DNA of 47,478 bases from a virus: IMG/VR virus record IMGVR_UViG_3300019890_000006, positions 1 to 47,478 of that record; one strand, given 5' to 3'. Every line of letters starts with the position of its first letter. The stretch's first letter is position 1. Positions 30,313 to 44,796 of this stretch are shown in pieces. The position numbers and the translations under genes are program-made. The notes beneath the pieces are model-generated. The model was not told the origin of the DNA. It ran no database searches and worked only from the letters and a program-made list of their open reading frames with translations.

Positions 30313-30341
30313 ACTATAGGGAGGTTTCTATAGAATGTCAA
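30313..30341 (-). promoter_or_regulatory. Leftward sigma70 promoter
   Basis: Read on the minus strand: TTGACA (30341-30336), 17 bases, TATAGT (30318-30313). Near-consensus. Drives 30271 leftwards. The stop codon of the upstream membrane protein overlaps the -35. Confidence 0.75.
30314..30333. promoter_or_regulatory. CTATAG-N8-CTATAG operator, site 1
   Basis: CTATAG at 30314-30319 and 30328-30333. The first overlaps the -10 and the second the upstream part of the spacer of the leftward promoter. The same spacing recurs at two other promoters. Confidence 0.6.
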
Positions 30342-30517
30342 CTATTTATTTGAATTTCATCCGCAATAAATGCTCCGGTAAATAATCCAATGGGTAAAAA
30401 TAATATTAAGTAAAAAATGGCATACCCCATACCGCAATAAGCTGTTATAAGCAAAGGCGCTGATACTAGGAAAACACCAAAGAATATAAGACCTAAAAAG
30501 AACACTATGTATTTCAT
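30338..30517 (-). CDS. Small membrane protein, 59 aa
   Basis: ATGA overlap with the upstream gene. MKYIVFFLGLIFFGVFLVSA and AIFYLILFLPIGLFTGAF give two membrane helices. Function unknown; belongs to a group of small membrane proteins in this early operon. Confidence 0.65.
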   Translation of the reverse strand: MKYIVFFLGLIFFGVFLVSAPLLITAYCGMGYAIFYLILFLPIGLFTGAFIADEIQINS

Positions 30518-30696
30518 TTAACTATTTCCTTATTTTCCTCTGGGTTTTGTATAATCATTACGGCTTCCATATCTTCCCAATGAAATTCAATAGCTTTATT
30601 TACTATCCTTGCCTCTGAAACAAAAGATAATTGGCATCTTTCCGCGTGTGTTTCTGATTTTAAAATAACTCTGTTCCATTCGACCTGTACTATCAT
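30514..30696 (-). CDS. Hypothetical protein, 60 aa
   Basis: Small soluble beta-rich protein (MIVQVEWNRVILKSETHAER). Overlaps the polymerase stop by four bases (ATGA). Not recognised. Confidence 0.6.
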   Translation of the reverse strand: MIVQVEWNRVILKSETHAERCQLSFVSEARIVNKAIEFHWEDMEAVMIIQNPEENKEIVK

Positions 30697-32927
30697 TTGT
30701 TATATCTCTTTGCTCTCCATCCACCCTTAGCCTTAACCGGCCACCCTTTCGCCCAATGGGGCATTTTACTCATAATGGTTTCAACTTCGGCCACCGAACC
30801 TACACCCTCGGGAACCTCGACGATGATTTCATCATGAACGTGTAGAACTACGGGATAGCCCGCGGCCTCTAAATTCACAATGGCATGTGCTAATAAATCC
30901 CGCGCTGTTGCCTGTACGATATTCTCGGTTAGCTTACCGCCGTAGGTGTCCATGCGAACCCAACCCATAGCGCCATACTTAGGGTTAGTATTCCACCCTT
31001 CGAAACTAAGTGCATCTTGTCCCCATTTACCCGGGGAGATAACCGGCTTGTGATATGTGATTAATCGACCAGACAATAAGCGGCAGTAAAGTACCTTACG
31101 TTTACACACGTAGGTTATGCCGTTATAGGAATATTCGACTCCTTCGTCTCTTACCGCATCAAGCGCCGCATCTTGAACGCCGTACCAGAATCTTACAATG
31201 TTAGGAGAAGCTGCACGCCATGCGTCGATAGCTTTTTGCATATCGTCATCTGAGGGAAAATATTCATCAGCACCAAAAGCTTTCCAAGCACCTTTGGCCC
31301 CTTGGTAACCACTAGCCAGCTCGGCAACCTTACCAAACTTACGAGCGGGATGATGTGAACCCGAAGTACTTTTGTATAGTTCAAATTCTTCAAAATCCAT
31401 GCCGTTAATTTTAGCGGCCGACATTTCATAAATTTTGCCATGCGTGTTAAATACATCGAGTCGCCATTGTTCCTTAGCTAAGGCCGCAAGTACTACGGCT
31501 TCAATGGCGCTATAGTCCGAGCATATTAAATCTTTACCCGGGGCAGCTATAAACATCCCCCGTAAACATGCACTTATGATTTCCACCGCATCACCGAAAT
31601 AATATTCCGTCAGGGGTAGACTACCTATAGATAATATTTCGATAGCATCAGAAACCGCGCCGGGGTTCCATTCAACAACCTTACCTAAATCAAATAGTTT
31701 ACAATCACACCAAGGGCATACGTGAGTATCTTTATTTGAATGCTTAGAACAAGTTTGGCACTTAGCTACCATAGGCCCACTATTCGGCAGGTTTTGAGGT
31801 TGCGGCCCGTTGCCTGACGCTCGGCCAGTCCGTGCGGCATGATACATAAAGAGGTCATGCAAACGGCCGTCGCGGGTCACTTGGTTTGACATAGAATAAG
31901 GTTTTTTAACTGACGCAGACCCTAACATTTCCCTAAGCTCTAAAGCCCTACGTACATCAGGTGGAAGCAATGGAAGCTTTAAAGCAATACTTAATGTCTC
32001 CGCGGTGAGCGACGGCATAGGGTAACCCCTATGATCAAGCCATGCTTTAAGTGCGGGTAATTCACTAGCCGCGCCGACGGTTCTATCAGTGATACGGAAT
32101 AACTCTAAGTCGTACTTATGGTAAGCCTGCTCTAATATCAATTTACATTTTTCGATAAGGTCTACATCAACCTGTACGCCGCGTATATTGATTTCAAGGT
32201 CACATTGCCAGAAGTGTAGCTCCTCGGGGGACAAGTCGGGAATGAGTGAAGACAACTCGGCTTCGGCCTGAATATCTCTAAGGCAATAATTATAGAAATT
32301 CTTAGCGTCCTCGGGGTCGTCACTGGGTAAGGTGCGTAAACTAGCATTGTGCTTAGTAGGGTTCCGAGGAATAGAGAACTTATTGATCAAGCGTGTACCG
32401 TCTTTGTCCTTTTGGTTCTTAATTCCTACAACCGTACCGCAAGGCGCTAAGGAACCGGGGAGAGCGTGGGCACGGGCTTTCGCCGCTGCGCATCGTAATT
32501 GAACCGGGTGTATTTTAGGAAAGCCGTATTTAGGTATGCATACATTTGTCCATATCCAATATTCAAACGCTACGTTCCAAGCTTCAATGACTCCACCCAT
32601 TACTAAGTGCCTAAATAAATCGCTAGGGTTTTCATCGCCGGGAACCCACAACTTACGACCTTCTCCGTTCTTTAAATCATAAGCTAAACAAATCACCTCA
32701 GCGTCGGGATGTTCCGAATACTTGGCCGCACCGACGGCGAATATACCTTTTTTTGTCGCACCTATTGGCTTTTTAAACTTCTGTTCTTTCTCATTCCATA
32801 CGAAACCCGCAGGGCTGTAAGTCTCGAAGTCAATATCAGGTACTATAGTCGTCACACCGAGTCCGGCGACTAATGACGTACCGGCCCTATAATCGTCAAG
32901 CGTTGGGGGTGGGGGAGGGATTAGCAT
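30693..32927 (-). CDS. DNA polymerase, family A with 3'-5' exonuclease
   Basis: 744 aa. Exonuclease: Exo I DIDFETYS (Asp33, Glu35) and Exo III NYCLRDIQAEAE. Polymerase: GRASGNGPQPQNLPN, motif A SDYSAIE (about 467-473), motif B RKFGKVAELASGYQG, motif C HVHDEIIVEVP (about 696-706). Between the first polymerase motif and motif A is a CxxC...CPWC zinc-ribbon insert (about residues 389-410), known from one phage subfamily of this enzyme. It replicates the phage genome. Starts with a seven-base overlap with the upstream gene. Confidence 0.95.
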   Translation of the reverse strand: MLIPPPPPTLDDYRAGTSLVAGLGVTTIVPDIDFETYSPAGFVWNEKEQKFKKPIGATKKGIFAVGAAKYSEHPDAEVICLAYDLKNGEGRKLWVPGDENPSDLFRHLVMGGVIEAWNVAFEYWIWTNVCIPKYGFPKIHPVQLRCAAAKARAHALPGSLAPCGTVVGIKNQKDKDGTRLINKFSIPRNPTKHNASLRTLPSDDPEDAKNFYNYCLRDIQAEAELSSLIPDLSPEELHFWQCDLEINIRGVQVDVDLIEKCKLILEQAYHKYDLELFRITDRTVGAASELPALKAWLDHRGYPMPSLTAETLSIALKLPLLPPDVRRALELREMLGSASVKKPYSMSNQVTRDGRLHDLFMYHAARTGRASGNGPQPQNLPNSGPMVAKCQTCSKHSNKDTHVCPWCDCKLFDLGKVVEWNPGAVSDAIEILSIGSLPLTEYYFGDAVEIISACLRGMFIAAPGKDLICSDYSAIEAVVLAALAKEQWRLDVFNTHGKIYEMSAAKINGMDFEEFELYKSTSGSHHPARKFGKVAELASGYQGAKGAWKAFGADEYFPSDDDMQKAIDAWRAASPNIVRFWYGVQDAALDAVRDEGVEYSYNGITYVCKRKVLYCRLLSGRLITYHKPVISPGKWGQDALSFEGWNTNPKYGAMGWVRMDTYGGKLTENIVQATARDLLAHAIVNLEAAGYPVVLHVHDEIIVEVPEGVGSVAEVETIMSKMPHWAKGWPVKAKGGWRAKRYNK

Positions 32928-33217
32928 TCCAATGGTTCTCCAAGTTCTTTTAGCACTTCTATAACGAAGTCCTTAATAGCGTCTAACCTTTTTATTTTAG
33001 GTATATTTATTGGGTCAAAATGATGCGCTAAATTCTGACGATGACAATGATCATAAATACCTTTTAAAGCGTTTATTGCTTTTTCATATTTATATTCTAT
33101 TTCGTTAGGGATAATAGTTCTTTGTATTTCATTAACTTTATTTTCTAGTTTCATTAATCTTCTTGCTAACATCTCATTTTCTGTACGTGTTAATGTTACC
33201 CGTTCTTTTAATAGCAT
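32921..33217 (-). CDS. Hypothetical coiled-coil protein, 98 aa
   Basis: N-terminal half is a coiled coil (LTRTENEMLARRLMKLENKV). The C-terminal half is helical with several His. Directly upstream of and overlapping the polymerase gene, so a replication accessory role is possible but unproven. Confidence 0.6.
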   Translation of the reverse strand: MLLKERVTLTRTENEMLARRLMKLENKVNEIQRTIIPNEIEYKYEKAINALKGIYDHCHRQNLAHHFDPINIPKIKRLDAIKDFVIEVLKELGEPLEC

Positions 33218-33230
33218 AATTTACCCTTTA

Positions 33231-33247
33231 GCCCCCAGAACGGGGGC
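33231..33247 (-). other. GC-rich hairpin in the early operon
   Basis: Perfect six-base stem GCCCCC / GGGGGC with a five-base loop between two small leftward genes. No T tract on either strand. It may be an attenuator or RNA processing or stability element upstream of the polymerase pair. Confidence 0.45.
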
Positions 33248-33254
33248 AGTGTGA

Positions 33255-33404
33255 TTAATCAACTTTGTCTAACTTTATTTTATGCTTATCTTCCATAAGT
33301 TCTTTTATCCATAGGGTGTATTTAGTATTTTTACCAGCTAAATAACCCATAATAAAAGATAGAAGTACGCATATAACCTGTATAAGAAAATGTTCATCTA
33401 TCAT
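33255..33404 (-). CDS. Small membrane protein, 49 aa
   Basis: ATGA overlap with the stop of the ssDNA-binding gene. MIDEHFLIQVICVLLSFIMG is a membrane helix, followed by a basic cytoplasmic tail (KELMEDKHKIKLDKVD). Unknown role. Confidence 0.6.
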   Translation of the reverse strand: MIDEHFLIQVICVLLSFIMGYLAGKNTKYTLWIKELMEDKHKIKLDKVD

Positions 33405-34207
33405 GCTAACATCATCCCGTTTTGTATTAATTGCTCATCAGTCCAACCCGCTTGTTTATAAGCTTCGTAGGTTAAACCGTTTGCCTTATCGGTCATTTGT
33501 TTAGGAGTTAATATTGCATTGTATGGCGCAGGTGCTGCCGTAACGGGTGGCGCGGCGGGTGTGACAGGTGCAGACGCCGCAGCCGGTTGACTTGACATAC
33601 CAACAGGAACGGGGGAACAACCGACAGGCATAGCGCCGCCGAAACCTATAGTTTTAGGGTCAATATTGCTTCTCATAATTTCCGCCCCATATCCGATAAA
33701 TGCTACGTGTGAAAAGTTCAAGAACATACCGGGGTTCATTTGTGCCACGTTTGGCTCAATGCTTCCGTAAACTTGAATGAAATAACCGGTCTTAATAGCA
33801 CCCTCTGGCATAGTGAAAATAGAACCGTCGATGTTACAAAGTGTTGGCGCAAACTGTGTGCTAAAACTTAAAATCCAATGGCCGGGATATCCTTCATTAT
33901 CACATGGTCGGGTTCCCTTCTGGTTAACTTCGGTACTATCGCCGTCGGTAACTTTCCACGCAAATTGACGATTGTTAAATCGACCGTCTGGGAATGCTTT
34001 TACCGCTTCGCCCCATATTATTTGACCCCATGCCGTTTGATTCCAGTGTGTTTCGGTTCCTTTGGCGACTGCAACTTTAATCCAGTATTTAACCGTAGGT
34101 TTTCCGGTCTTATCTGTTAAAGGTTTACCATAAAAATCTTCTGTATCGGGAGTGTATAAAGAACCCATTACTAAGCGGCCAATCGGGGAACGTAATTTTT
34201 CTGACAT
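33401..34207 (-). CDS. ssDNA-binding-like (OB-fold) protein
   Basis: 268 aa from ATG at 34207 with AAGGA upstream. The longer reading frame to 34273 runs through the promoter and is rejected. SPIGRLVMGSLYTPDTEDFY and GKPTVKYWIKVAVAKG fit the DUF2815/gp2.5-like OB fold of phage replication proteins. A Pro/Ala-rich linker (about residues 205-235) leads to the tail YEAYKQAGWTDEQLIQNGMM, a motif common in phage replication proteins. First gene after the promoter at 34245-34273. Confidence 0.75.
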   Translation of the reverse strand: MSEKLRSPIGRLVMGSLYTPDTEDFYGKPLTDKTGKPTVKYWIKVAVAKGTETHWNQTAWGQIIWGEAVKAFPDGRFNNRQFAWKVTDGDSTEVNQKGTRPCDNEGYPGHWILSFSTQFAPTLCNIDGSIFTMPEGAIKTGYFIQVYGSIEPNVAQMNPGMFLNFSHVAFIGYGAEIMRSNIDPKTIGFGGAMPVGCSPVPVGMSSQPAAASAPVTPAAPPVTAAPAPYNAILTPKQMTDKANGLTYEAYKQAGWTDEQLIQNGMMLA

Positions 34208-34244
34208 GTTTATTTTCCTTAAGTAAGTTTGTTTATCCGAAGCA

Positions 34245-34273
34245 AGTATATCTACTATTGACCGACTAGTCAA
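34245..34273 (-). promoter_or_regulatory. Leftward promoter of the ssDNA-binding gene
   Basis: Minus strand: TTGACT (34273-34268), 17 bases, TATACT (34250-34245). The -35 and spacer are covered by a TetR-like palindrome. Confidence 0.75.
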
Positions 34274-34276
34274 TAG
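34255..34276. promoter_or_regulatory. TetR-type operator candidate, site 2
   Basis: Eight-base perfect arms CTATTGAC and GTCAATAG with a six-base centre CGACTA. This is the longest of the four sites and sits on the -35 and spacer of the promoter. Confidence 0.65.
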
Positions 34277-34287
34277 CTATTTTTAAA

Positions 34288-34470
34288 TTAAGTAGCATAA
34301 GACCAGATGGCTTGACATATCCACCCGTCATAATCGAATGGCGCACCCGATAATCTCCACCCAGAATCTAAGTGCTCTTGCACCTGAGTAACTAATTTAA
34401 CCGTGTCTAAACTAGCTATAACATCAAATAAAACCCTACCTTGTGTTTCATAATCTATATTGTCACTCAT
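34288..34470 (-). CDS. DUF1737-like small protein, 60 aa
   Basis: LVTQVQEHLDSGWRLSGAPF then WICQAIW matches the DUF1737 pattern (helix, GWxxxGxP, strand with QA). Start preceded by a 19-base leader that is duplicated before the next gene. Paralogous in fold to 28022-28189. Confidence 0.65.
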   Translation of the reverse strand: MSDNIDYETQGRVLFDVIASLDTVKLVTQVQEHLDSGWRLSGAPFDYDGWICQAIWSYAT

Positions 34471-34485
34471 GAGAACATTTTCCTT
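34467..34485. repeat. 19-base leader repeat, copy 1
   Basis: On the minus strand it carries AAGGA plus spacer and the ATG of the gene starting at 34470. Identical to 34628-34646. Confidence 0.75.
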
Positions 34486-34631
34486 TAGTTAATTAATTTC
34501 TCTTTAACTTCTAACTCTTTTACGTAATAGTGGTTTTCCTCGGCGAAGGCGAAAACCTCCGCATCAACTTCGTGCAAAAATACGTCCATTAGTGCACCAT
34601 CATCCAAATCAAAGACTCCATAAACTATCAT
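34485..34631 (-). CDS. Small acidic protein, 48 aa
   Basis: ATG at 34631 follows copy 2 of the 19-base leader and overlaps the nuclease stop (ATGA). MIVYGVFDLDDGALMDVFLH then ENHYYVKELEVKEK. Unknown; compact strand-helix-strand pattern. Confidence 0.55.
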   Translation of the reverse strand: MIVYGVFDLDDGALMDVFLHEVDAEVFAFAEENHYYVKELEVKEKLIN

Positions 34632-34646
34632 GAGAACATTTTCCTT
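34628..34646. repeat. 19-base leader repeat, copy 2
   Basis: Second copy of the ribosome-site leader, here overlapping the 3' end of the nuclease gene. A duplication of one small gene start is the simplest explanation. Confidence 0.75.
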
Positions 34647-35743
34647 ATTTTCCTTTCGTCAATGGGTTGTAACTTCTTAGCGCCTTTGGGGGTTTCGGAG
34701 TATTGCCGCACAACCTTAGCGGGTATGCCGGCTTGGATTGCCTGCTTAGGCGTGATAAATTTCACTTCAGCAGGCTTACGTAATTCAATATCGAACAGTT
34801 CGCCTAGCGCCGTAATCTCTTTTTCATCTTTTGCCCATTTCTCTAAGCTTTGTACTTCTCCAAGTTCATAATGGGGTATGCGCTTACCGCTCTTAAGAAG
34901 CGAGAGGGCTTCTTGCTCAAGGCCGGTTATGCGAGCGTCAAGCAATTTAGCGGCGTTATGCAATATACGCAATTCATTACCTAACTCGGCCGCGTTCATA
35001 TCGTGGGGTATAGATATATCCATAGTGTTAATATTACTTAAGACCGTCTTTTGTAACGCCGGGCACGCGTGCCGTGCTTGGCAGTTTACACACTGGGGGG
35101 ATGGTTTAGTAACTGGATTGCTTTGCATCGCTTCCCATTCGGTACGCATTAGCATATCCCAATATTCCACAAGGTCTTTTAACTCTACTTCCCAAGTTCT
35201 TATAGGGCCGTCGGGATGGGACGCTCGCGGTTGAACAATGTGAAATACGGCTTTTGTGTATCTTTCATTTATACCCGCCGCGTACTCTATCATTTGCCAA
35301 TTTTCGTAAACTTCAACGGGGCCAAACCCATATTTAAAATCAAACATATGTAACGTTTCATTTTCTACAAACCAAGCGTCAGGCGTGCCCCAGCACTCCG
35401 GGTGAATGCCCGGCATTTCGAGGCGTTCTTCAATATGTAGCTCTGCCGTTTCGTTAGTGGCAAAAATACTTTCATTATTTAAGACCGTGAAAACATGATC
35501 TATATACAGGTTAACGCCGTATTTTAAGTAAGAGGGTATATCTTCCGGGTCTTCTAAAGTAAATATACCGCGCTTAATAGCTTCACTATATTTCATATGC
35601 ATTGCGGCGTAGTGATGCGCAAGTTCTCCCTCTTGTGCCGCCTCTGTTTGTTCACGTGGGTAGAGTGCTTCGAGTTTTCTTGAACCCGAGCAAGCTACCC
35701 GCCTAGCTGCCGACGATGGTGGTAATACTGAATGCTCGCTCAT
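34628..35743 (-). CDS. DUF2800 PD-(D/E)XK nuclease (Cas4/RecB-like)
   Basis: 371 aa. LPPSSAARRVACSGSRKLE at the N-terminus, then catalytic text CWGTPDAWFVEN and MFDFKYGFGPVE (Asp and DxK), and QMIEYAAGI as motif QxxxY-like. A CVNCQARHACPAL cluster with an earlier Cys suggests an iron-sulphur site as in Cas4/AddB-type nucleases. Probably processes DNA ends during replication or recombination. Shares its end with the upstream gene. Confidence 0.85.
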   Translation of the reverse strand: MSEHSVLPPSSAARRVACSGSRKLEALYPREQTEAAQEGELAHHYAAMHMKYSEAIKRGIFTLEDPEDIPSYLKYGVNLYIDHVFTVLNNESIFATNETAELHIEERLEMPGIHPECWGTPDAWFVENETLHMFDFKYGFGPVEVYENWQMIEYAAGINERYTKAVFHIVQPRASHPDGPIRTWEVELKDLVEYWDMLMRTEWEAMQSNPVTKPSPQCVNCQARHACPALQKTVLSNINTMDISIPHDMNAAELGNELRILHNAAKLLDARITGLEQEALSLLKSGKRIPHYELGEVQSLEKWAKDEKEITALGELFDIELRKPAEVKFITPKQAIQAGIPAKVVRQYSETPKGAKKLQPIDERKIRKMFS

Positions 35744-36696
35744 TATTTACCCCTCAAAGCTTCGTCAAGATCAGCATCAATAAGCGGTATCAAATGGTCA
35801 TTTGTGAATATATCCTTAATTGCGACAAGGCCGTGCTTTCTTACGATTGACGTTACTTGCTCATGCGTCAGTTTATTTGTAGCTTTTGCCATGACTATCT
35901 TATCAATTACGGTATTACCGTTGACTGGTGGGGGTGGGGCAAATACAGGGTCAGGTGGTATGTCTATTTTTACGGGTTGTACGTCCACATGGTATAAATT
36001 TTCCGTTTCAAGCTTCTTAATTACTTCACTAGCTGACTTATGTTTTCTCTTTTTTGGGGTAACGGCTCGTTTTAGTATGTCGGTTAGTTCGTCTCCTTTT
36101 ATTTCTTTTTTTAGTTGATCGTCTAATGGTTTAACAAACTTATCTAGAAAACCTTGTGCAGATTCGGCAACTATGTGATTGTGGGAAGGTATTCCAAATA
36201 GGTCGTTAGCTTGAAGCATCCCTTTGTCATCACATACTTGTATTGGTTCTTCTAGTACTCTAATGCCCGCGTTAACCGTGTTGCTAAAAGCTTCTTTTAG
36301 CGCGGCGGTGCTTATTTCATTAAAATTAGTTGGCATATCCATTGCACTAACGGGCACTGTATCAAGATCGCCATAGGCTTGTGCACTTCCACAATGTTGA
36401 TAAGGTGCACTTGCTAAATCATGGAAATTATGACCTTTTATTTCGTCATGAATTTCAAAGCCCCTATGTCCTTGCTCGGGTAATTCATCAACGGTTAATA
36501 CAGTAGGTTCTCTAAATAACTCTTGTACTCTTTCGGCCGCTTTGGTGTGAATATCTTGAGGCTGAATAGGCTGCCTAAATACTTCTTCCGGTACTTCACG
36601 CACGCCATGCCCCGCAAAGTCTAGTAAGAACGTAGCGAGCTTAACTAAGTCTTGGGGTCTTTCTTGACGTAAATCGGTAATCTCTATCTTAATCAT
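35743..36696 (-). CDS. Hypothetical replication-region protein, 317 aa
   Basis: ATG at 36696 with GGAG. Mostly polar and acidic; Pro-rich linker near residues 250-262. The C-terminal 55 residues (NKLTHEQVTSIVRKHGLVAI, then HLIPLIDADLDEAL) resemble a short C-terminal helical module found at the end of several phage DNA-processing proteins. Overlaps the DUF2800 nuclease start, so a partner of that nuclease is a reasonable guess. Confidence 0.6.
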   Translation of the reverse strand: MIKIEITDLRQERPQDLVKLATFLLDFAGHGVREVPEEVFRQPIQPQDIHTKAAERVQELFREPTVLTVDELPEQGHRGFEIHDEIKGHNFHDLASAPYQHCGSAQAYGDLDTVPVSAMDMPTNFNEISTAALKEAFSNTVNAGIRVLEEPIQVCDDKGMLQANDLFGIPSHNHIVAESAQGFLDKFVKPLDDQLKKEIKGDELTDILKRAVTPKKRKHKSASEVIKKLETENLYHVDVQPVKIDIPPDPVFAPPPPVNGNTVIDKIVMAKATNKLTHEQVTSIVRKHGLVAIKDIFTNDHLIPLIDADLDEALRGK

Positions 36697-36823
36697 TTGT
36701 TAATCTCCATTTATTAATTAGGTAGTCCCCGCGGGCGGCAGTACTTACGTAAGGAGGTTTACCCCGGGACTTGTCGCGGTTAGCGCACTCACGACTTGCG
36801 TTGTGAAATCTAATGTAAAACAT
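36689..36823 (-). CDS. Small basic protein, 44 aa
   Basis: ATG at 36823 overlaps the end of the upstream gene; stop runs eight bases into the downstream one. MFYIRFHNASRECANRDKSR then KPPYVSTAARGDYL. It fills the only gap in the operon. No ribosome site better than GAGAGAAAG. Confidence 0.4.
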   Translation of the reverse strand: MFYIRFHNASRECANRDKSRGKPPYVSTAARGDYLINKWRLTND

Positions 36824-37097
36824 CTTTCTCTCTTAAAAACGAGTAATTTAAACCTGCTATTAAATCCTTAACTACCATTGATTGTGTAGCGTTTTTAACG
36901 TCTGATTCGATAGCCTGTGATACTAGTTCGACAAGCACTAGAACCGAAGTTAAAAACATACCTACTAATTGATTCCCATCAGCTTTAAAGGGCTTATTAT
37001 CTGATTCTATATTTAATTGTTTTATAAGTCCTCGGAATGCCGCTTCTCCTAATCTCTGACTTAATTCGTAATCTATTTTCATTTTGTTATTATCCAT
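36810..37097 (-). CDS. Hypothetical early protein, 95 aa
   Basis: ATG at 37097 (MDNNKMKIDYELSQRLGEAA) is taken as the start because the leftward promoter lies at 37116-37145; an ATG at 37082 is also possible. The segment NQLVGMFLTSVLVLVELV is hydrophobic, maybe a buried or membrane helix. First gene of the leftward early operon. Not recognised. Confidence 0.6.
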   Translation of the reverse strand: MDNNKMKIDYELSQRLGEAAFRGLIKQLNIESDNKPFKADGNQLVGMFLTSVLVLVELVSQAIESDVKNATQSMVVKDLIAGLNYSFLREKDVLH

Positions 37098-37102
37098 AAA
37101 TA

Positions 37103-37130
37103 TTGACAACAACTCATAATAAGGTATTAT
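37103..37130 (+). promoter_or_regulatory. Rightward early promoter (helicase operon)
   Basis: TTGACA (37103-37108), 16 bases, TATTAT (37125-37130). A TetR-type palindrome starts within the -10 and covers the expected start site. Confidence 0.7.
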
Positions 37131-37145
37131 TGACCGTACAGTCAA
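37116..37145 (-). promoter_or_regulatory. Leftward early promoter, divergent
   Basis: Minus strand: TTGACT (37145-37140), 18 bases, TATTAT (37121-37116). It overlaps the rightward promoter head to head, and its -35 and spacer are covered by the same palindrome. Confidence 0.6.
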
Positions 37146-37147
37146 TA
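37128..37147. promoter_or_regulatory. TetR-type operator candidate, site 3
   Basis: Arms TATTGAC and GTCAATA with centre CGTACA. One protein bound here would close both divergent early promoters. Confidence 0.65.
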
Positions 37148-37164
37148 GGTAGGATGAAATAAAA

Positions 37165-38778: not shown

Positions 38779-38805
38779 TAGCTCAACAGGGAAGGAGTAT
38801 ATAGC

Positions 38806-39282
38806 ATGAAGCTAGATATGTGGGCGTCAAGGTGGGGAGTGTCGGAAATAGCTTTAGATGATTTACGTAAAACGTTCGGCCTTGCACAATTGGAAGTGGT
38901 AGAGAATGACATACAAAAGTCCGAGGCCGCACTAGTAAACTTAATACGAATCGAGGCAAGTAAAAAAGGTTTAAGGGTATGGCGCAATAATGTAGGGGCG
39001 GCACAAATGCCCGACGGTAGCTTTTTGCGCTATGGCCTTGCTAACGAATCGGGAAAGATGAACACATATATTAAGTCCGCCGACTTAATAGGCATACGAC
39101 CCGTTAAAATAAGGTCGCCTATGGTGGGTATGACGATAGGCCAATTTGTTAGCCGTGAAGTTAAGGCGAGCGATTGGAAATATAAAGGAACAGACCGAGA
39201 ACGTGCACAACTCCGCTGGATTGAAGTTATTAACGGCATGGGTGGTGACGCGTGCTTTGCTAATCAAGAGGGGACTTTATGA
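38806..39282 (+). CDS. VRR-NUC domain nuclease
   Basis: 158 aa; AAGGAG before the ATG. The second half fits VRR-NUC: RVWRNNVGAAQMPDGSFLRY, SADLIGIRP, the catalytic ExK in REVKASDWK, and AQLRWIEVINGMGGDACFA. The family acts on branched or flap DNA structures. The N-terminal 45 residues are helical and variable. ATGA overlap with the next gene. Confidence 0.85.
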   Translation: MKLDMWASRWGVSEIALDDLRKTFGLAQLEVVENDIQKSEAALVNLIRIEASKKGLRVWRNNVGAAQMPDGSFLRYGLANESGKMNTYIKSADLIGIRPVKIRSPMVGMTIGQFVSREVKASDWKYKGTDRERAQLRWIEVINGMGGDACFANQEGTL

Positions 39283-39470
39283 CTAACCATATAAAATGTA
39301 CAACAGAAGAAAATAAGGCATGGTGTGGCGAAGAATTAGACGGAACATTCCATTTTAAAGACACAGAGGCGGCGGTTATCAATGGGGTACACGGGGAACT
39401 TATAGCATGTACGGCTTGCTTTAATACTGTAGTACATCATCTGTCTCTAAGAGTGGATTTAGGGCTATGA
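39279..39470 (+). CDS. Small Cys/His protein, 63 aa
   Basis: MTNHIKCTTEENKAWCGEEL then ACTACFNTVVHH. Two Cys pairs and His suggest zinc binding. ATGA overlaps on both sides. Unknown. Confidence 0.6.
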   Translation: MTNHIKCTTEENKAWCGEELDGTFHFKDTEAAVINGVHGELIACTACFNTVVHHLSLRVDLGL

Positions 39471-39604
39471 GTAAGGACGACGAAGTTAAACAATTTGTAG
39501 AGAATCATGTTATGCCATTTATTGCGGCGTGCATTGAATTACTAAGTAAGAGTACTGAACAGGAAGACATAGATTTTGCAGAGGAACTTAGACAACTAAC
39601 TTAA
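39467..39604 (+). CDS. Small acidic helical protein, 45 aa
   Basis: ATGA overlap at 39467-39470. MSKDDEVKQFVENHVMPFIA and ACIELLSKSTEQEDIDFAEE are helical and acidic. Unknown; coupling to the previous gene is the main support. Confidence 0.55.
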   Translation: MSKDDEVKQFVENHVMPFIAACIELLSKSTEQEDIDFAEELRQLT

Positions 39605-39617
39605 TGGAGTAACTAGG

Positions 39618-39806
39618 ATGATGTGCAGGGATTGCGGCAGACTGGATGGACTTAAAACGATAACAGATAAGAAAGAGGCTATATGTGAACATTGTTTAAG
39701 ATTTCAAGACGGGTGCAAACACTCGCGAACTAAGCTGTATAAAGATTTTCAAGACGGCACGATATACAGTATTTGCCGAAATTGTAGTTATAGACAGGAA
39801 TTATAA
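39618..39806 (+). CDS. Small zinc-ribbon protein, 62 aa
   Basis: MMCRDCGRLDG, then CEHCLRFQDGCKH and CRNCSYRQEL. Two or three CxxC pairs. It lies directly before the TetR-type regulator (two-base gap). Unknown. Confidence 0.65.
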   Translation: MMCRDCGRLDGLKTITDKKEAICEHCLRFQDGCKHSRTKLYKDFQDGTIYSICRNCSYRQEL

Positions 39807-39808
39807 AA

Positions 39809-40114
39809 ATGAGAGAACGTAAAGACCCTACAGAGCGAAAACAAGAACTATTAGAAGTGGCGATTCAATTAGCAAAAGAAACCGGTTATAGCCACATTAC
39901 ACGTAACGAGATTGCACGCCGTGCAGGTGTGGCGTATGGTTTAGTTACATCCTATTTTAAGACCATTGATAACCTAAAGAAAATGGTGGTTAAGGAGGCC
40001 ATAAAACAAGAAATAGTACAAATAATAGCAGAAGCACTCGCGAGAAAAGAACCTTTAACGAGAAGGCTAACTCCCGCCCTCCGGGAGAAAGTTATTCGTT
40101 ATTTATCAAAATAG
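39809..40114 (+). CDS. Short TetR-type transcriptional regulator
   Basis: 101 aa. The first 60 residues are a standard TetR HTH: RKQELLEVAIQLAKETGYSH, ITRNEIARRAGVAYGLVTSY, FKTIDNLKKMV. TetR proteins are usually near 200 aa; the C-terminal ligand domain is almost wholly missing, leaving about 40 residues. It may therefore dimerise weakly or act as a constitutive repressor. The four TGACCG-type palindromes in this genome look like TetR operators. It probably times early expression, shutting it off as the protein builds up. Confidence 0.85.
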   Translation: MRERKDPTERKQELLEVAIQLAKETGYSHITRNEIARRAGVAYGLVTSYFKTIDNLKKMVVKEAIKQEIVQIIAEALARKEPLTRRLTPALREKVIRYLSK

Positions 40115-40125
40115 TTTTAACTATT
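40110..40125 (+). other. AT-rich hairpin after the tetR-like gene
   Basis: AATAGTT and AACTATT, seven-base perfect arms with a two-base centre. It overlaps the tetR-like stop and lies before the primase gene. Too weak for a terminator; possible minor regulatory site. Confidence 0.3.
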
Positions 40126-40141
40126 CTAAGGATTTATCGAA

Positions 40142-42466
40142 ATGGACTTATTGCCACAGGCTTTTTATTCCCTGAATTTATATAAACAATTTATCGTCTA
40201 TGTGACCGTAGATGGTAATCCAAAGAAGATTAAGAAACCGGCCAATCATATCACGGGTGCAGTTTGGGACGCGCACCGGCCGGAGATTTGGACAGACGCC
40301 GAGACAGCTATAGCCGCCGCAAAGCGCTTAGGGCCGTCTTATGGCGTAGGCTTTGTGTTTACAGAAAATGACCCTTTCTTTTTATTAGATATTGACTCTT
40401 GCTATGACCCAGAAACCGGATGGTCTGACTTAGCAAAAAATCTATTAACTCGATTAGGTGGCGCGGGGGTGGAAGTTTCACTCTCTGGTAAAGGCTTACA
40501 TATTATCGGTTCATGTGAACCATTCGAACATGACTGCCGCAATAATGATTTAAAATTAGAGTTATATACAAAGAAACGTTTTGTAGCGCTTACGGGTATT
40601 CACGCTAGCGGTAATGTAGGACTCGATTGTACCCAAGCTATTAAGGCTATTGCTTCAGAGTTCTTCGTTACCTCTAACCCTAAAGCGTCTAAAGTCGAGA
40701 GTGGTTGGTGGAGTGAAACACCAATAGCCGAGTGGTCAGGCCCAGAGGACGACGCCGAGCTTCTCGCAATGGCTCTTAAGTCCCAAAGCAACGCCGCTAA
40801 GTTTGGCAATGCGACGAAAGCCTCATTCTCCGAACTCTGGAACGCTAACGAGCAAGCACTGTGTCATTTCTTCCCCCCTGATACCAATTCTAACGAACCT
40901 TATAACCGCTCAAGTGCTGACGCCGCCCTCGCGCAACATCTCGCATGGTGGACAGGTTGCAATGCTGAACGCATGTTAAGGATGATGAAAGAATCAGCGC
41001 TATCTAGGGACAAATGGGAAAGAGACGATTACTTACCTCGCACGATTAGGGCCGCACGAGGCAATACCACTGGATGCTTGCAAGCTAAACAACATCATAC
41101 CAAGCCCGAACAAGCAGAGCAAATAAAAAACAGCGATTCAAACTTCTTAACACCCCAGCAGCAAGTAGAGCATTTCAAAGGACATGTGTATATTTGCGAG
41201 GATAACGGTATTTTAGTACCCGGCGGGTACGTGCTAGACAAAGAGCGTTACAACTCAATGGAGGCCGGCCCTATCTATGTTATGGATTATGCCAATACTA
41301 AAACGACGCCTAAAGCTTGGGACGCTTTCGTCATGAACCGAGCTATTAAGTTCCCGAAAGTTCACGCTTCAACGTTCAGACCGGACTTAACGCCGGGAAC
41401 TATCATTGAAGAAGATAGCCGTTTGCTCGTTAACACCTATTGGCCCTATAACTGCGTTAGGACTAAGGGAGATGTTACGCCGTTCTTAATTCATTTAAAC
41501 AAACTATTCCCCGTTGAGCGAGACCGTGAAATTATCATTAATTACATGGCGGCATTGGTTCAACACATAGGGCATAAGTTTAAATGGTGTCCGGTTCTCC
41601 AAGGAACACAAGGGAATGGCAAAACGTTATTGTCTCGTGTGCTTTCGTATATTGTCGGTAGTCGATATACACAATCCCCTAGGGCTGACCAGATAAGCAG
41701 TAATTTTAATGACTGGTTAGACGGTAGCGTACTTGTGACGGTTGAAGATATTTTTGTGCAAGAGGGTAAAGATGAAGTCATGGAAGTATTAAAGACTATT
41801 CTTGACCTTGAGGAACAAGCTATCGAAGGTAAGGGAAAGAAAAAAGTAATGCGTAGAATCGTGTGTAATTTCATTCTCAATACGAATCATAAAGCCGGCT
41901 TGAGGAAATCTAAAGACGATAGACGCTTCGCTATTTTCTATACCCCACAACAATCAGTCGAAGATTTGCAAAAAGACGGCATGATGGACGGTTATTTTCG
42001 AAATTTATATAACTGGTTGAAGAATGGAGGCTATGCAATCATCGCGGAATGGTTACTCACGTACGCGATTAAAGATGAATTCAATCCCCTTTATGTCGAA
42101 CGTGCGCCCCATACCTCAACGACTCAACAAGCCATTGAACACGGGCGGGGTAACGTTGAGAATGAAGTACAGGAAGCTATTGATTCGGCACGCAATGGAT
42201 TTAAAGGCGGTTGGGTATGCTCAGCCCCTCTTGATACATTACTTAAAGAAATCAAAGCCGACCGACGCGTACCGTATAACAAGCGCCGTGACCTCATGAA
42301 ATCCCTAGGATATGACTTACATCCCGGATTACCTGACGGCCGCGTCACTCGTGTTATGCAAGGGGAGAGCACAAAGCCCCGCCTCTATATACGTAATGAC
42401 CACAAGGACAAGGCTTTAACCGACGCCAACGCAATCATGAACGCTTACAAGGATGCTCAGAAATGA
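40142..42466 (+). CDS. Primase-polymerase with C-terminal SF3-type helicase
   Basis: 774 aa. N-terminal primase-polymerase features: LDIDS (about 82-86, metal-binding DxD) and SLSGKGLHIIG (about 113-123). The helicase half has Walker A GTQGNGKTLL (about 488-497), Walker B-like LVTVEDIFV and ILNTNHKAG (SF3/DUF5906 type), and a following arginine-finger region KDDRRFAIF. Similar organisation is known in phage NrS-1-like replicases and D5-like proteins. Likely starts DNA synthesis and opens the fork for the family A polymerase. AAGGA upstream. Confidence 0.9.
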   Translation: MDLLPQAFYSLNLYKQFIVYVTVDGNPKKIKKPANHITGAVWDAHRPEIWTDAETAIAAAKRLGPSYGVGFVFTENDPFFLLDIDSCYDPETGWSDLAKNLLTRLGGAGVEVSLSGKGLHIIGSCEPFEHDCRNNDLKLELYTKKRFVALTGIHASGNVGLDCTQAIKAIASEFFVTSNPKASKVESGWWSETPIAEWSGPEDDAELLAMALKSQSNAAKFGNATKASFSELWNANEQALCHFFPPDTNSNEPYNRSSADAALAQHLAWWTGCNAERMLRMMKESALSRDKWERDDYLPRTIRAARGNTTGCLQAKQHHTKPEQAEQIKNSDSNFLTPQQQVEHFKGHVYICEDNGILVPGGYVLDKERYNSMEAGPIYVMDYANTKTTPKAWDAFVMNRAIKFPKVHASTFRPDLTPGTIIEEDSRLLVNTYWPYNCVRTKGDVTPFLIHLNKLFPVERDREIIINYMAALVQHIGHKFKWCPVLQGTQGNGKTLLSRVLSYIVGSRYTQSPRADQISSNFNDWLDGSVLVTVEDIFVQEGKDEVMEVLKTILDLEEQAIEGKGKKKVMRRIVCNFILNTNHKAGLRKSKDDRRFAIFYTPQQSVEDLQKDGMMDGYFRNLYNWLKNGGYAIIAEWLLTYAIKDEFNPLYVERAPHTSTTQQAIEHGRGNVENEVQEAIDSARNGFKGGWVCSAPLDTLLKEIKADRRVPYNKRRDLMKSLGYDLHPGLPDGRVTRVMQGESTKPRLYIRNDHKDKALTDANAIMNAYKDAQK

Positions 42467-42669
42467 TAATCAGTATTTATAAATGCGATATGTGTAAAAA
42501 AGAGTTTAGAGACGCTAAAAGTATGTACGAACCTAAAAACGGCCTGTGTATGGAAATACGCGGGCTACTCAAAGCTAGGTTTAAAATAAACGAAACATGC
42601 GTCGGGTGCTTCGAATCTATACGCAACACAATACATAAAGCAGTAACGGATATGATTGTAGTTGACTAA
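42463..42669 (+). CDS. Small zinc-binding protein, 68 aa
   Basis: ATGA overlap with the replicase. YKCDMCKKEFRDAKSM and TCVGCFESIR provide two CxxC pairs. Unknown. The next promoter's -35 overlaps its stop codon. Confidence 0.65.
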   Translation: MIISIYKCDMCKKEFRDAKSMYEPKNGLCMEIRGLLKARFKINETCVGCFESIRNTIHKAVTDMIVVD

Positions 42670-42690
42670 CTATAGATGGTCGCCTATAGT
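42662..42690 (+). promoter_or_regulatory. Rightward promoter with CTATAG operator
   Basis: TTGACT (42662-42667), 17 bases, TATAGT (42685-42690). Serves the single small gene at 42723. Confidence 0.7.
42670..42689. promoter_or_regulatory. CTATAG-N8-CTATAG operator, site 2
   Basis: CTATAG at 42670-42675 and 42684-42689, extended to seven-base arms (ACTATAG / CTATAGT). Same register relative to the -10 as the other two sites. Confidence 0.6.
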
Positions 42691-42722
42691 GGTATTGTAA
42701 ATCAACTTAAAGGGAATTTAAT

Positions 42723-42866
42723 ATGATAAACGCTATCAGACGACCACGCTTTACTCTCCGAATGATTCATACATTACGCCGCTACAATCTCACTAATTGC
42801 TTGTGCTTTTTGGCTTTTGGGATTGTAGCAACGATGTTATTGTCATCAATACAGAACGTACAGTAA
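42723..42866 (+). CDS. Small membrane protein, 47 aa
   Basis: ATG with AAAGGGAA site. Basic N-terminus (INAIRRPRFTLRMIHTLRRY) and one membrane helix (CLCFLAFGIVATMLLSSI). It has its own promoter and tail-overlaps the convergent exported-protein gene by 21 bases. Unknown. Confidence 0.6.
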   Translation: MINAIRRPRFTLRMIHTLRRYNLTNCLCFLAFGIVATMLLSSIQNVQ

Positions 42867-43250
42867 GCACGTGTTGAGGTCTGGGTCACAATGCAGCATA
42901 TCATCGCGTTTGACCCATTCACTATGATCTCTAGGTATAACGTTGTGAATTTTAGAAGTTTTAAAGACTAACCAGTTTTCCGGTTGATCTTCTTGCGAGT
43001 AATAGCAATCCACGATTCCTACTGACCCAATTTTATAGGCGTATAAATCCCTTAAAAACAGGCTCGTTGACGTGGTTAGATTGAGGTAACTTACTTGATT
43101 AAATACCGTGGTACTACCGTTGACCATCTCACATCGTGATTTTTCCCCGGGCTTGCAATTGATTTGACTACCGCATGATGCACTACTGCCCGCTAGAGCA
43201 TTAAGGGTTAGAAGACTTGACGCGACGAGAATTAACACTTGTTTTAACAT
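42846..43250 (-). CDS. Exported protein A, 134 aa
   Basis: AAGGA before ATG 43250. A clear Sec signal peptide: KQ, then hydrophobic VLILVASSLLTLNALA and a probable cut ALA/GSS. The mature part has about seven Cys (SCGSQINCKPGEKSRCEM, DCYYS, LHCDPDLNTC), fitting periplasmic disulphides. Phage periplasmic proteins often act in superinfection exclusion or host envelope change; that is a guess here. Overlaps the HTH gene by 50 bases. Confidence 0.75.
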   Translation of the reverse strand: MLKQVLILVASSLLTLNALAGSSASCGSQINCKPGEKSRCEMVNGSTTVFNQVSYLNLTTSTSLFLRDLYAYKIGSVGIVDCYYSQEDQPENWLVFKTSKIHNVIPRDHSEWVKRDDMLHCDPDLNTCLLYVLY

Positions 43251-43422
43251 GGCTCGAAATCCTTTTCGACTGTTTGTTAATGTCAGTCTCCGGGATTAAA
43301 TAACTCTTACCACATTCACAATGATGTGCACCCGGAAAATGTCCTTGCTTGATTTTAGCATGGATTCTTTGTACACACACCCCGAGAAAGGCCGCCGCCT
43401 CTCTAGCGTTAAACTTCTTCAT
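43201..43422 (-). CDS. Excisionase/MerR-like HTH protein, 73 aa
   Basis: FNAREAAAFLGVCVQRIHAK then IKQGHFPGAH and SYLIPETDI is the winged HTH pattern of AlpA/excisionase-like proteins. Basic C-terminus (NSRRVKSSNP). No integrase is encoded, so a regulatory role is more likely than excision. It could be the protein that binds the CTATAG sites, but nothing in the sequence proves it. Confidence 0.75.
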   Translation of the reverse strand: MKKFNAREAAAFLGVCVQRIHAKIKQGHFPGAHHCECGKSYLIPETDINKQSKRISSHVKTSVNSRRVKSSNP

Positions 43423-43431
43423 CGTTAGCCC

Positions 43432-43830
43432 TTAAGTTATGTAAGCGTAATTATTATTCGCGCAGCTCGCTACTTTCTTACCCTCAAGCACAATTGTTGT
43501 TACAGCCCTTGTATAATACTGGCCGTTGGATTCCCATACCCGCTTATTGGTGAATCGTCTTATATCGACATAGGTTTGACCCGGGTTAACCATGATATTC
43601 AATGTTGTTTTATCATTGAACATATTCATTACTTCATGATAATAAGTAATCTTATAGCTCATGGGTATTGATGAATTATTCATGATTGACACGCCGTGAT
43701 CGCTAAAAAAATCACTCGGCATATTGCTATGCTGTGACAATATAACAGACATTGAGCATGTTGCTATTTCCACATTTGCCATTGCATTTGTTGCTATGAG
43801 CGCAGCCATAAGCGCTATTAATCTTTTCAT
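43432..43830 (-). CDS. Exported protein B, 132 aa
   Basis: AAGGA upstream of ATG 43830. Signal peptide MKRLIALMAALIATNAMA with AMA/NV cut site. Mature part beta-rich with two Cys (ATCSMSV, ASCANN), probably one disulphide. First protein gene after the RNA array and on the same transcript if no terminator intervenes. Unknown function; pairs with exported protein A. Confidence 0.75.
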   Translation of the reverse strand: MKRLIALMAALIATNAMANVEIATCSMSVILSQHSNMPSDFFSDHGVSIMNNSSIPMSYKITYYHEVMNMFNDKTTLNIMVNPGQTYVDIRRFTNKRVWESNGQYYTRAVTTIVLEGKKVASCANNNYAYIT

Positions 43831-43848
43831 ACTATAAAATCCTTTTCA

Positions 43849-43860
43849 TAGTGCTTTAAA
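43849..43860. repeat. Short direct repeat flanking RNA E, left
   Basis: TAGTGCTTTAAA; a near copy TAGTGCTTAAA lies at 44056-44066, overlapping the tRNA 3' end. The two flank the 43864-44045 RNA. Confidence 0.5.
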
Positions 43861-43863
43861 TAA

Positions 43864-44045
43864 ATGCCGTCTCTCCGCGCTGCCAAGCCTAGTTTACGGT
43901 CGTAAGTTCTCCGGCTTTCTAATAACCCTGTTAGCATCCCGTTTGCCCCCTTCCTTCCTAGGCGTCAGTTGGGCATCATCTAGTTTTTTAAGCTAGTCCT
44001 AGCGATCGAATCGTTTCGCTCGTGTGCCGCCGGTTCAGACGGCAT
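43864..44045 (-). ncRNA. Structured RNA E, 182 nt (unassigned)
   Basis: Nine-base perfect closing stem: ATGCCGTCT (43864-43872) with AGACGGCAT (44037-44045). On the minus-strand transcript, inner pairings include GCCTAG with CTAGGC, TTAC-GACC-GTAA, TAAC-AGG-GTTA, AGCGA/TCGCT, and TGCCC with GGGCA. The last interleaves with the GCCTAG pairing, giving a pseudoknot. No long reading frame crosses it. It does not look like tmRNA or RNase P RNA. Confidence 0.5.
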
Positions 44046-44055
44046 CGTCTGCGTT

Positions 44056-44066
44056 TAGTGCTTAAA
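44056..44066. repeat. Short direct repeat flanking RNA E, right
   Basis: TAGTGCTTAAA; partner of 43849-43860. Possible trace of insertion of RNA E next to a tRNA 3' end. Confidence 0.5.
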
Positions 44067-44136
44067 GAGGATGGGACTCGAACCCACGCGCACACAGTCT
44101 TTAGCTAAGCGCTCTACCCGACTGAGCTACCTCTTT
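44063..44136 (-). tRNA. tRNA-like gene, apparent anticodon AAA
   Basis: 74 nt. Seven-base acceptor AAAGAGG/CCTCTTT, D arm GCTC-AGTCGGGTA-GAGC, T arm GTGGG-TTCGAGT-CCCAT with canonical loop, five-base variable region, A73, CCA not encoded. The anticodon arm CTTAG-CTAAAGA-CTGTG has one mismatch and one wobble and places AAA at 34-36 (Phe UUU if read). A34 is unusual for a Phe tRNA, so the gene may be degenerate or have another role. Confidence 0.8.
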
Positions 44137-44139
44137 AAG

Positions 44140-44152
44140 CCATAAATTGGCG
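44140..44152. repeat. 13-base spacer repeat, copy 1
   Basis: CCATAAATTGGCG, identical to 44225-44237. On the minus strand it holds GCCA, the 3' tail of RNA C, and the AT-rich spacer to the next RNA. Confidence 0.7.
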
Positions 44153-44226
44153 GGAATCGGCGAAGAACCAACATCGCACTTCCCCGTCTTAACGGGGCGT
44201 CGTGGCACCGTTTGACTACGATTCCC
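44148..44226 (-). tRNA. tRNA-like RNA C, degenerate, with encoded GCCA
   Basis: 79 nt including GCCA. Eight-base acceptor GGGAATCG/CGATTCCC, a short D-like arm GTC/GAC, a strong anticodon-like hairpin CCCCG-TTAAGA-CGGGG with a six-base loop, and a T-like arm GCGA/TCGC with an odd ten-base loop. Size, acceptor and 3' CCA say tRNA; the loops do not fit a working one. Could be a decaying tRNA or a tRNA mimic. Confidence 0.55.
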
Positions 44227-44237
44227 ATAAATTGGCG
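44225..44237. repeat. 13-base spacer repeat, copy 2
   Basis: Identical to 44140-44152. Separates RNA B (GCCA end) from RNA C. The repeat suggests a common processing site or array duplication. Confidence 0.7.
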
Positions 44238-44362
44238 TCAGTTTGTAGGATTTCACTACTTAAGCACATTCACCTCTAGGTCGCTCACTCCTCTGGCTAC
44301 CATTTGCTAGAGGGCAAACTCGCCAACGAAGAGGGCCGACTATCACCTCGGCCTAAACTGAC
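44233..44362 (-). ncRNA. Structured RNA B, 130 nt with tRNA-like ends (unassigned)
   Basis: Eight-base closing stem GTCAGTTT/AAACTGAC (44355-44362 with 44237-44244) followed by GCCA, as in a tRNA. Next to the 3' strand is a T-arm-like hairpin GTAG-TGAAATC-CTAC. Inside: hairpin GGCCGA/TCGGCC (44334-44353), a longer stem CTCTTC..TGGC/GCCA..GAGGAG, and hairpin TTTGC/GCAAA. The latter's loop pairs over seven bases (44307-44313 with 44273-44279), forming a pseudoknot. Too long for any normal tRNA; no tag peptide frame is evident. Confidence 0.55.
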
Positions 44363-44369
44363 AAAATTA

Positions 44370-44482
44370 GTGTGAGGCGCTAGCTTAGATAAATAGGGAA
44401 GTTATCGCCTAGTCATCCACCCCCTCGGTAGTCCCTACGACCGGCACGACTCCTAAGTCGCTTTTCGCTCTGTGCCTCACAC
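44370..44482 (-). ncRNA. Structured RNA A, 113 nt, first in the array (unassigned)
   Basis: Nine-base closing stem GTGTGAGGC/GCCTCACAC (44474-44482 with 44370-44378). Hairpins: CGACT-CCTA-AGTCG (44447-44460), CGGT/ACCG (44426-44443) and GATAA/TTATC (44388-44406), all given as plus-strand letters. The loops of the last two are complementary over six bases (TCCCTA 44432-44437 with TAGGGA 44394-44399), a kissing interaction. The promoter at 44487-44515 would start transcription at or within two bases of its 5' end. Confidence 0.55.
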
Positions 44483-44486
44483 GCAA

Positions 44487-44515
44487 ACTATAGAACGTTA
44501 TCTATAGAGTGTCAA
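44487..44515 (-). promoter_or_regulatory. Promoter of the RNA array
   Basis: Minus strand: TTGACA (44515-44510), 17 bases, TATAGT (44492-44487). The expected start, 5-8 bases beyond the -10, is 44482-44479, the first bases of RNA A, so the RNA has no leader. It is one of the two near-perfect promoters in the genome. Confidence 0.75.
44488..44507. promoter_or_regulatory. CTATAG-N8-CTATAG operator, site 3
   Basis: CTATAG at 44488-44493 and 44502-44507, covering the -10 and spacer of the RNA array promoter. Same register as the sites at 30314 and 42670. Confidence 0.6.
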
Positions 44516-44796
44516 TATATTCCTCTGTCAAGTAATAAAGCTTTTAAGAACGCTTCGGCGGTCGCTAAATCGTCGGGGTGAATGCCTATCTTACTCATAA
44601 CCAGCCCTAAGCCATGATTAAGAGCTATCTTTCTAACTCTATCGGCATTGCGTTTAGAACGGTCTCTATTGCATTGGATGCATACGGCGCTCAAAGTGTA
44701 TCGAGCCGTCGTATGACCATTTTGACAAGGCGTCCCGGTATTGTAATATTTGTGACCATTTTGTACGGCTATTTCTCTGGGTGTTGGAAATATCAT
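44512..44796 (-). CDS. Zinc-ribbon protein, paralogue 1, 94 aa
   Basis: GHKYYNTGTPCQNGHTTARY, then CIQCNRDRS is the phage zinc-ribbon module often found next to or within HNH proteins (CxxGH...CxxC). C-terminal IHPDDLATAEAFLKALLLDR. TAATG overlap with the paralogue upstream. Its last codons overlap the RNA array -35. No HNH catalytic part is present, so it may bind DNA or RNA only. Confidence 0.7.
   Translation of the reverse strand: MIFPTPREIAVQNGHKYYNTGTPCQNGHTTARYTLSAVCIQCNRDRSKRNADRVRKIALNHGLGLVMSKIGIHPDDLATAEAFLKALLLDRGIY

Follow-up and report, generated by a model that had tools for sequence, protein, structure and literature searches.

The phage genome recorded in IMG/VR as IMGVR_UViG_3300019890_000006, analysed here over the whole 47,478-bp record (hereafter the window), contains three copies of an inverted hexamer pair, CTATAG-N8-CTATAG (N8 denoting eight bases of any kind), each embedded in a host-type σ70 promoter. 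We propose, with a probability of roughly 70%, that these sites are the operators of one phage-encoded regulator, that their most likely reader is a small HTH_17 protein encoded behind one of the three promoters, and that this protein exerts negative autoregulation over a three-promoter regulon. The proposal is built on what can be read from the sequence: where the sites lie, how they are conserved at orthologous promoters, where the HTH_17 gene stands, and that this gene and the operator occur together. The three promoters, designated s1, s2 and s3, and the gene for the proposed regulator are as follows.

30313..30347, minus strand: operator-promoter s1; upstream partial half-site AAATAG 30342-30347, -35 TTGACA 30336-30341, CTATAG 30328-30333, N8, CTATAGT 30313-30319
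42656..42690, plus strand: operator-promoter s2; upstream partial half-site TTGTAG 42656-42661, -35 TTGACT 42662-42667, CTATAG 42670-42675, N8, CTATAGT 42684-42690
44487..44521, minus strand: operator-promoter s3; upstream partial half-site degenerate (AATATA), -35 TTGACA 44510-44515, CTATAG 44502-44507, N8, CTATAGT 44487-44493
43201..43422, minus strand: 73-residue HTH_17 protein (MerR/BldC/Xis-like winged helix; Pfam HTH_17, 2e-7), the proposed regulator, downstream of s3

The inverted pair occupies positions 30314-30333, 42670-42689 and 44488-44507, exactly as reported in an initial annotation of this DNA, and no fourth copy is present in the window. The single hexamer CTATAG is itself found 26 times against 13 expected, just six of these being paired at N8, and dinucleotide shuffles of the window, made to set the count of three against expectation, returned no pair at all (expected 0.00). 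When all 6-mer inverted repeats with spacings of 0-20 were counted over the whole window, CTATAG-N8-CTATAG alone attained three copies, the maximum for any such repeat in 100 first-order Markov simulations being two. The 8-bp interiors of the three sites (AAACCTCC, ATGGTCGC and ATAACGTT) are unrelated, so that the sites are not recent copies of one another. On this evidence, and on its recurrence in related phages described below, we take CTATAG-N8-CTATAG to be a real operator family.

A σ70 consensus scan blind to the motif scores s1, s2 and s3 at 11, 10 and 11 of 12, and places the promoter cores at 30313-30341 and 44487-44515 (leftward) and at 42662-42690 (rightward), which bears out the earlier description of two leftward and one rightward strong promoters overlapped by the sites; all three copies in the window fall within promoters and none elsewhere, and the pair is hence not equally common away from them. 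The spacer found by the scan is 17 bp in all three promoters, and their common reading, in promoter orientation, is TTGAC[A/T]-N2-CTATAG-N8-CTATAGT, in which the upstream CTATAG starts two bases past the -35 hexamer and the -10 element TATAGT sits within the downstream CTATAG. Two other readings of this layout were rejected: a divergent promoter fired from the upstream CTATAG would have a reverse-strand -10 without the conserved last T, and a T7-type phage promoter (CTATAGGGAGG at s1) would find its GGGAGG at s1 only, no phage RNA polymerase gene having been noticed among the predicted proteins.

The operator, or a recognisable variant of it, recurs at the same three places in 29 promoters of 11 related phages, that is, in the window virus and ten relatives. 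The arrangement in which s1 follows the DNA polymerase A gene (polA), s2 follows the primase gene and s3 lies ahead of the operon containing HTH_17 is seen in G001, G003, G004 and G007 also, and in the 14 promoters of these four phages and the window hardly any variation is seen in the -35, in the -10 or in either CTATAG half, the 2-bp and 8-bp intervals being weakly or not conserved. The question raised by the initial annotation, whether the upstream half is kept at orthologous promoters, is answered positively in relatives 47-61% identical in primase. A search of IMG/VR with the motif only (TTGACN3CTATAGN8CTATAGT), using no homology, returned 12 stretches, five of which belong to relatives of the window (L004, L006, L007, L010 and L015) whose site falls at an orthologous place, either behind polA (s1) or behind the primase gene (s2); the control patterns gave four stretches when GATATC replaced CTATAG and two when CTATAG was shifted by one base. 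A motif matrix scores 27-47 at most sites, as against no more than 15.6 across about 0.7 Mb of relatives without HTH_17. In G007 the s1 and s2 promoters (19532-19560 and 34717-34745), which differ in other phages, are identical over the 29-bp core, and this identity suggests recombination between promoters. A recent duplication of a promoter cassette was rejected as a general explanation, as interiors and flanks differ among s1, s2 and s3 with the exception of G007.

The comparison of promoters also refines the operator unit. A third, partial half-site (..RTAG) stands directly ahead of the -35 in many promoters, on the upstream side of the middle CTATAG at a distance of 14 bp. In the 14-promoter set its TAG precedes the middle TAG by exactly 14 bp and is conserved in 12 (T), 12 (A) and 13 (G) cases. 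More distant relatives retain only the CTA of the final CTATAG. Thus G023 s1 reads AAGTAG-N8-CTACAT, its last half being broken; s2 and s3 of L094 read AAGTAG-N8-CTATAG and end in a last part that is ATACAAT or ATACTAT; and the last part in G045 is CTATAAT or CTACATT. From these variants it follows that the last half needs just CTA and the -10, the first just TAG, and the middle both CTA and TAG. We therefore consider the better unit, with moderate support from these alignments, to be TAG-(TTGACANN)-CTATAG-N8-CTAYANT, which would amount to a pair of overlapping inverted repeats, TAG-N8-CTA, with the middle CTATAG in common, one lying across the -35 and the other, offset by 14 bp, across the spacer and the -10. 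The TAG-to-CTA centres are 11 bp apart, about one helical turn, a spacing more suitable for a dimer than the 14 bp that separate the CTATAG centres. At least one perfect TAG-N8-CTA is found in 28 of the 29 promoters, and in a set of 21 promoters none is without both repeats, where column shuffling expects 2.3 (p 0.03). A direct-repeat model was rejected, since it fails at G023 s1 and s2 and at L094 s2 and s3, where TAG is lost in the middle or last position; in both G023 promoters the middle half is without TAG but keeps CTA, which a direct repeat does not predict. Of the inference originally drawn from the exact spacing, that one dimeric regulator serves all three promoters, the shared regulator is supported by the sequence comparison and the single dimer is less so, as TAG-N8-CTA occurs twice, overlapping, and more than one dimer may be bound.

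The HTH protein at 43201-43422, one of three candidates named at the outset, fits best by its distribution and by the position of its gene behind s3. Its profile matches are Pfam HTH_17 and the PHROG DNA-binding and excisionase profiles, and it is present in all 11 phages with sites. Whole-record searches found the family in seven phages with sites and, one marginal match apart, in none of 29 others. Among 80 primase loci, a site matching at least 16 of 19 positions was found in six of seven loci with HTH_17 and in none of the 73 without; some flanks in this set are short, and the locus L163 is a truncated end of G044, in which HTH_17 and the site are both present. The association holds in either direction of search: G023 and G024, picked by the HTH_17 protein alone, both carry operators, and the refined pattern AAGTAGTTGACN3CTATAG, which returned 10 stretches, nine of them in relatives, added three new phages, all of which encode HTH_17 and two of which, G044 and G046, are without the ribbon-helix-helix protein considered below. 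The operator lies upstream of the HTH_17 gene in 11 of 11 phages, as is characteristic of an autoregulated repressor with an operator ahead of its own gene; it is weakest in G024 and G044, and in G046 stands directly ahead of the gene. In L256 (on the same contig as L094), from position 5410 onward, an s3-type promoter drives a receiver-domain-like protein (MHFLLVEDNELAIWMIQDGL...), after which comes HTH_17. From the predicted recognition helix to the wing, the protein is close to invariant among its homologues. An AlphaFold2 model built with seven homologues is a winged helix, with a predicted local distance difference test score (pLDDT) of 77, in which the last predicted helix spans residues 44-58 and the protein ends at residue 73; the single-sequence fold (pLDDT 53) was unusable, and the alignment-based model was used instead. 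Among solved structures the nearest are BldC, NmlR/MerR, Xis and RacA, with BldC at the top (Z 7.7, root-mean-square deviation 1.2 over 51 residues), and since Z-scores below 8 are merely suggestive, the comparison establishes the class of fold but not how the protein binds.

Whether another protein could read the sites has to be weighed against two further regulators encoded in the window and against a second family of dyads.

27341..27592, plus strand: 83-residue ribbon-helix-helix (ParG/RHH) protein, second candidate, among late genes
39809..40114, plus strand: 101-residue TetR_N protein, tested and disfavoured for CTATAG-N8-CTATAG, present in most relatives without sites
37130..37145, unstranded: TTGAC-N6-GTCAA dyad (the other operator family), flanked by divergent promoters

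The RHH protein could read the sites in the manner of P22 Arc and, being encoded among the late genes, shut the promoters off late. It is present in all seven phages with sites of the first set and absent from 29 others, and a TAGA-N6-TCTA form of the repeat, with A after the middle CTATAG in 9 of 14 promoters and T before the last in 11 of 14, resembles the Arc half-sites. We nevertheless consider this reading unlikely, as the protein is not found in G044 (43 kb) or G046 (46 kb), two near-complete genomes that keep the operators; its expected DNA-contact residues vary under the same operator (N/N/L, K/N/I, N/N/E, A/N/L), and its gene stands behind none of the three promoters. A reading by the TetR-type protein is far less probable still. 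Inverted repeats lying over promoters are common targets of TetR proteins, and this one is found in phages with sites, but its gene occurs in nearly all primase relatives, most of them without the operator, and its recognition region differs in G001 (SSALIAKYF as against AYGLVTSYF) although the G001 operator is unchanged. Moreover, it is the other dyad, TTGAC-N6-GTCAA, that runs through the wider clade and precedes the operon with the TetR-type gene.

A reader of host origin, whose operator the phages would have borrowed, deserves mention on account of a second set of phages (G002, G005, G006 and G008-G011), in which the dyad occurs once each with no TetR_N gene and no convincing HTH_17 gene found. 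Five of these (G002, G006, G008, G009 and G011) have in common a promoter whose symmetric arms are longer, CAGACTATAG-N8-CTATAGTCTG or TCACTATAG-N8-CTATAGTGA, and vary symmetrically from phage to phage; G005 and G010 have one CTATAG-N8-CTATAG site each. The same promoter pattern, however, was met, across 257 Gb of genome sequence from bacteria and archaea, in just eight stretches, scattered over eight different and unrelated organisms, which is about the number expected from 18 fixed bases and gives no sign of a host regulon; the operators track the phage clade and a phage gene, and we regard a host regulator as highly improbable. Least probable of all is that there is no regulator, and that a preferred strong-promoter sequence has been copied within the genome with the upstream CTATAG present by chance or for reasons of DNA shape. 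One half-site is indeed already supplied by the -10, and the identical cores in G007 attest that copying within a genome happens. Yet in genomes other than G007 the 8-bp interior and the 2-bp spacer differ among s1, s2 and s3 while the half-sites stay constant, relatives without HTH_17 do not have the operator, and a one-base shift of the hexamer lowers the matches from 12 to 2.

Several observations also weigh against the HTH_17 protein as reader of a conserved double repeat. The fragment L093 carries HTH_17 and no site, G044 s3 is the one promoter without a perfect TAG-N8-CTA, the -35 of G024 s3 is poor, and the retention of at least one repeat by every promoter is only mildly unusual (p about 0.03 by column shuffle of the 21 promoters). 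The primase tree puts the HTH_17 phages in essentially one clade (L107 falls apart from the group, on a contig that stops 370 bp past the primase), so that their co-occurrence with the operator may stem from a single evolutionary event. The position of the gene behind s3 and the absence of the RHH protein from two members are, on the sequence evidence, independent lines in favour of HTH_17. The second phage set, which is mostly unrelated, has one such promoter in each phage and, in those searched whole, no HTH_17-family protein, which means that the dyad is usable by something else. Finally, the model of the HTH_17 protein is of moderate confidence at its pLDDT of 77, so binding to inverted repeats should be read as a provisional mode.

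With these reservations, the mechanism that we favour for the HTH_17 protein is repression. Near-consensus -35 and -10 elements with an optimal spacer should make the promoters active unaided, and as a protein sitting on TAG-TTGACANN-CTATAG-N8-CTA covers both promoter elements, repression is the simplest outcome. Binding of the operator by HTH_17, its stoichiometry, repression in place of activation and the time of action in infection are all inferred. The protein may occupy a single repeat as one dimer, or both repeats as two dimers; in the bound state it would occlude the -35 along with the upstream edge of the -10, and exclude RNA polymerase. It would thereby shut its own operon, which comprises tRNA genes, two exported-looking proteins and HTH_17 behind s3, and the regulator itself being made from s3, the loop would be one of negative autoregulation. 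The s1 and s2 modules, each starting with a small membrane-protein-like product, would be shut likewise. The genes and elements concerned are these.

30134..30271, minus strand: first gene after s1, encoding 45 residues with what looks like a single membrane span; G003 (47%) and G023 (65%) have relatives
42723..42866, plus strand: first gene after s2, encoding 47 residues with what looks like a membrane span; close relatives begin M-x-[NQ]-AIR
42846..43250, minus strand: 134-residue protein, signal-peptide-like N-terminus, s3 operon; no Pfam family
43432..43830, minus strand: 132-residue protein, signal-peptide-like N-terminus, s3 operon; no Pfam family
44062..44137, minus strand: tRNA gene downstream of s3; ARAGORN: Phe, anticodon AAA (unusual)

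A weaker tRNA-like element lies at 44152-44226 on the minus strand (Rfam tRNA, 26.2 bits, under the 29-bit cut-off), and both it and the tRNA gene are placed between s3 and the genes of the exported proteins. The ends of the window (1-141 and 47338-47478) overlap by 141 bases with one mismatch, as in a circular genome or one with a terminal repeat.

A phage repressor with its operators is a system of a known kind; what appears new is the architecture of the operator, and a search of the open-access literature on CTATAG operators and Jedunavirus promoters yielded no relevant description. One close precedent is P22 Arc, whose operator is situated between the -35 and the -10 of Pant and has a TAG-to-CTA spacing of N7. 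The sites described here may likewise present inverted TAGA-type half-sites at phage promoters, but the spacing from TAG to CTA is N8 and there are two overlapping repeats instead of one. Arc itself binds TAGA boxes (PMC12645479). The RHH protein is nonetheless not the best candidate here, because two phages with sites are without it. BldC, which occupies 9-bp direct repeats, AATTXXXX(C), in a head-to-tail arrangement (PMC5859096), is comparable to the HTH_17 protein as a polypeptide of about 70 residues consisting of a winged-helix domain only, with no coiled coil or sensor domain. The half-sites in the phage differ, being apparently inverted (TAG-N8-CTA) and set at 14-bp steps. With MerR and NmlR there is in common the winged-helix match and an operator between the -35 and the -10. 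Promoters of the MerR family, however, have long spacers of 19-20 bp that are corrected by the protein, whereas the spacer here is the optimal 17 bp, and the 73-residue protein is without a C-terminal coiled coil, sensor or effector domain. Phage excisionases (Xis) and other Pfam HTH_17 proteins belong to the same small winged-helix family, but the sites in question are promoters that serve phage genes, as opposed to attachment sites, and no integrase gene was noticed in the window. It is conceivable, though on balance we lean somewhat against it, that a minimal winged-helix protein reads two overlapping inverted repeats which merge their CTA and TAG into one CTATAG and alternate with the -35 and -10 elements, that this allows a graded or cooperative shut-off of three promoters, and that the regulator family is distinct from both BldC with its direct repeats and MerR with its long spacers.

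The TTGAC-N6-GTCAA dyad, which may be the first operator family implied when the initial annotation entitled CTATAG-N8-CTATAG a second one, is probably, to judge from its genomic context, the operator of the TetR-type protein. The copy at 37130 precedes the operon holding the TetR-type gene, a further copy lies at 34258-34273, and a partial one (TGACCGTATGGTCA) at 30293-30306, just downstream of s1. In about 0.75 Mb of primase relatives the inverted pair occurs 36 times at N6 and no more than four times at other spacings. The dyad, often in the form TTGACG-N4-CGTCAA, overlaps -35 elements at loci L096-L125, in the wider clade with the TetR-type gene. As to the second phage set, its promoters (G006 31697, G008 9700, G009 15580, G011 4338 and G002 375) adjoin a conserved gene of about 220 residues, and searches for HTH_3 and RHH_1 revealed no regulator common to the set.

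Phages of Klebsiella, Shewanella, Acinetobacter and Pectobacterium include primase relatives at about 44-46%, and among 50,697 phage records no isolate was found with a relative of the HTH_17 protein. The proposal would connect a small phage protein of the HTH_17 type, whose like is as a rule labelled just DNA-binding or excisionase, with a target sequence, a regulon and a loop of autoregulation, and it offers, from sequence alone, a testable prediction for 11 phages in a clade where no isolate carrying the HTH_17 protein was found. It would also mean that one genome holds two separate operator systems, TAG-N8-CTA and TTGAC-N6-GTCAA, so that simple binding assays could serve to reconstruct how these phages programme their transcription.

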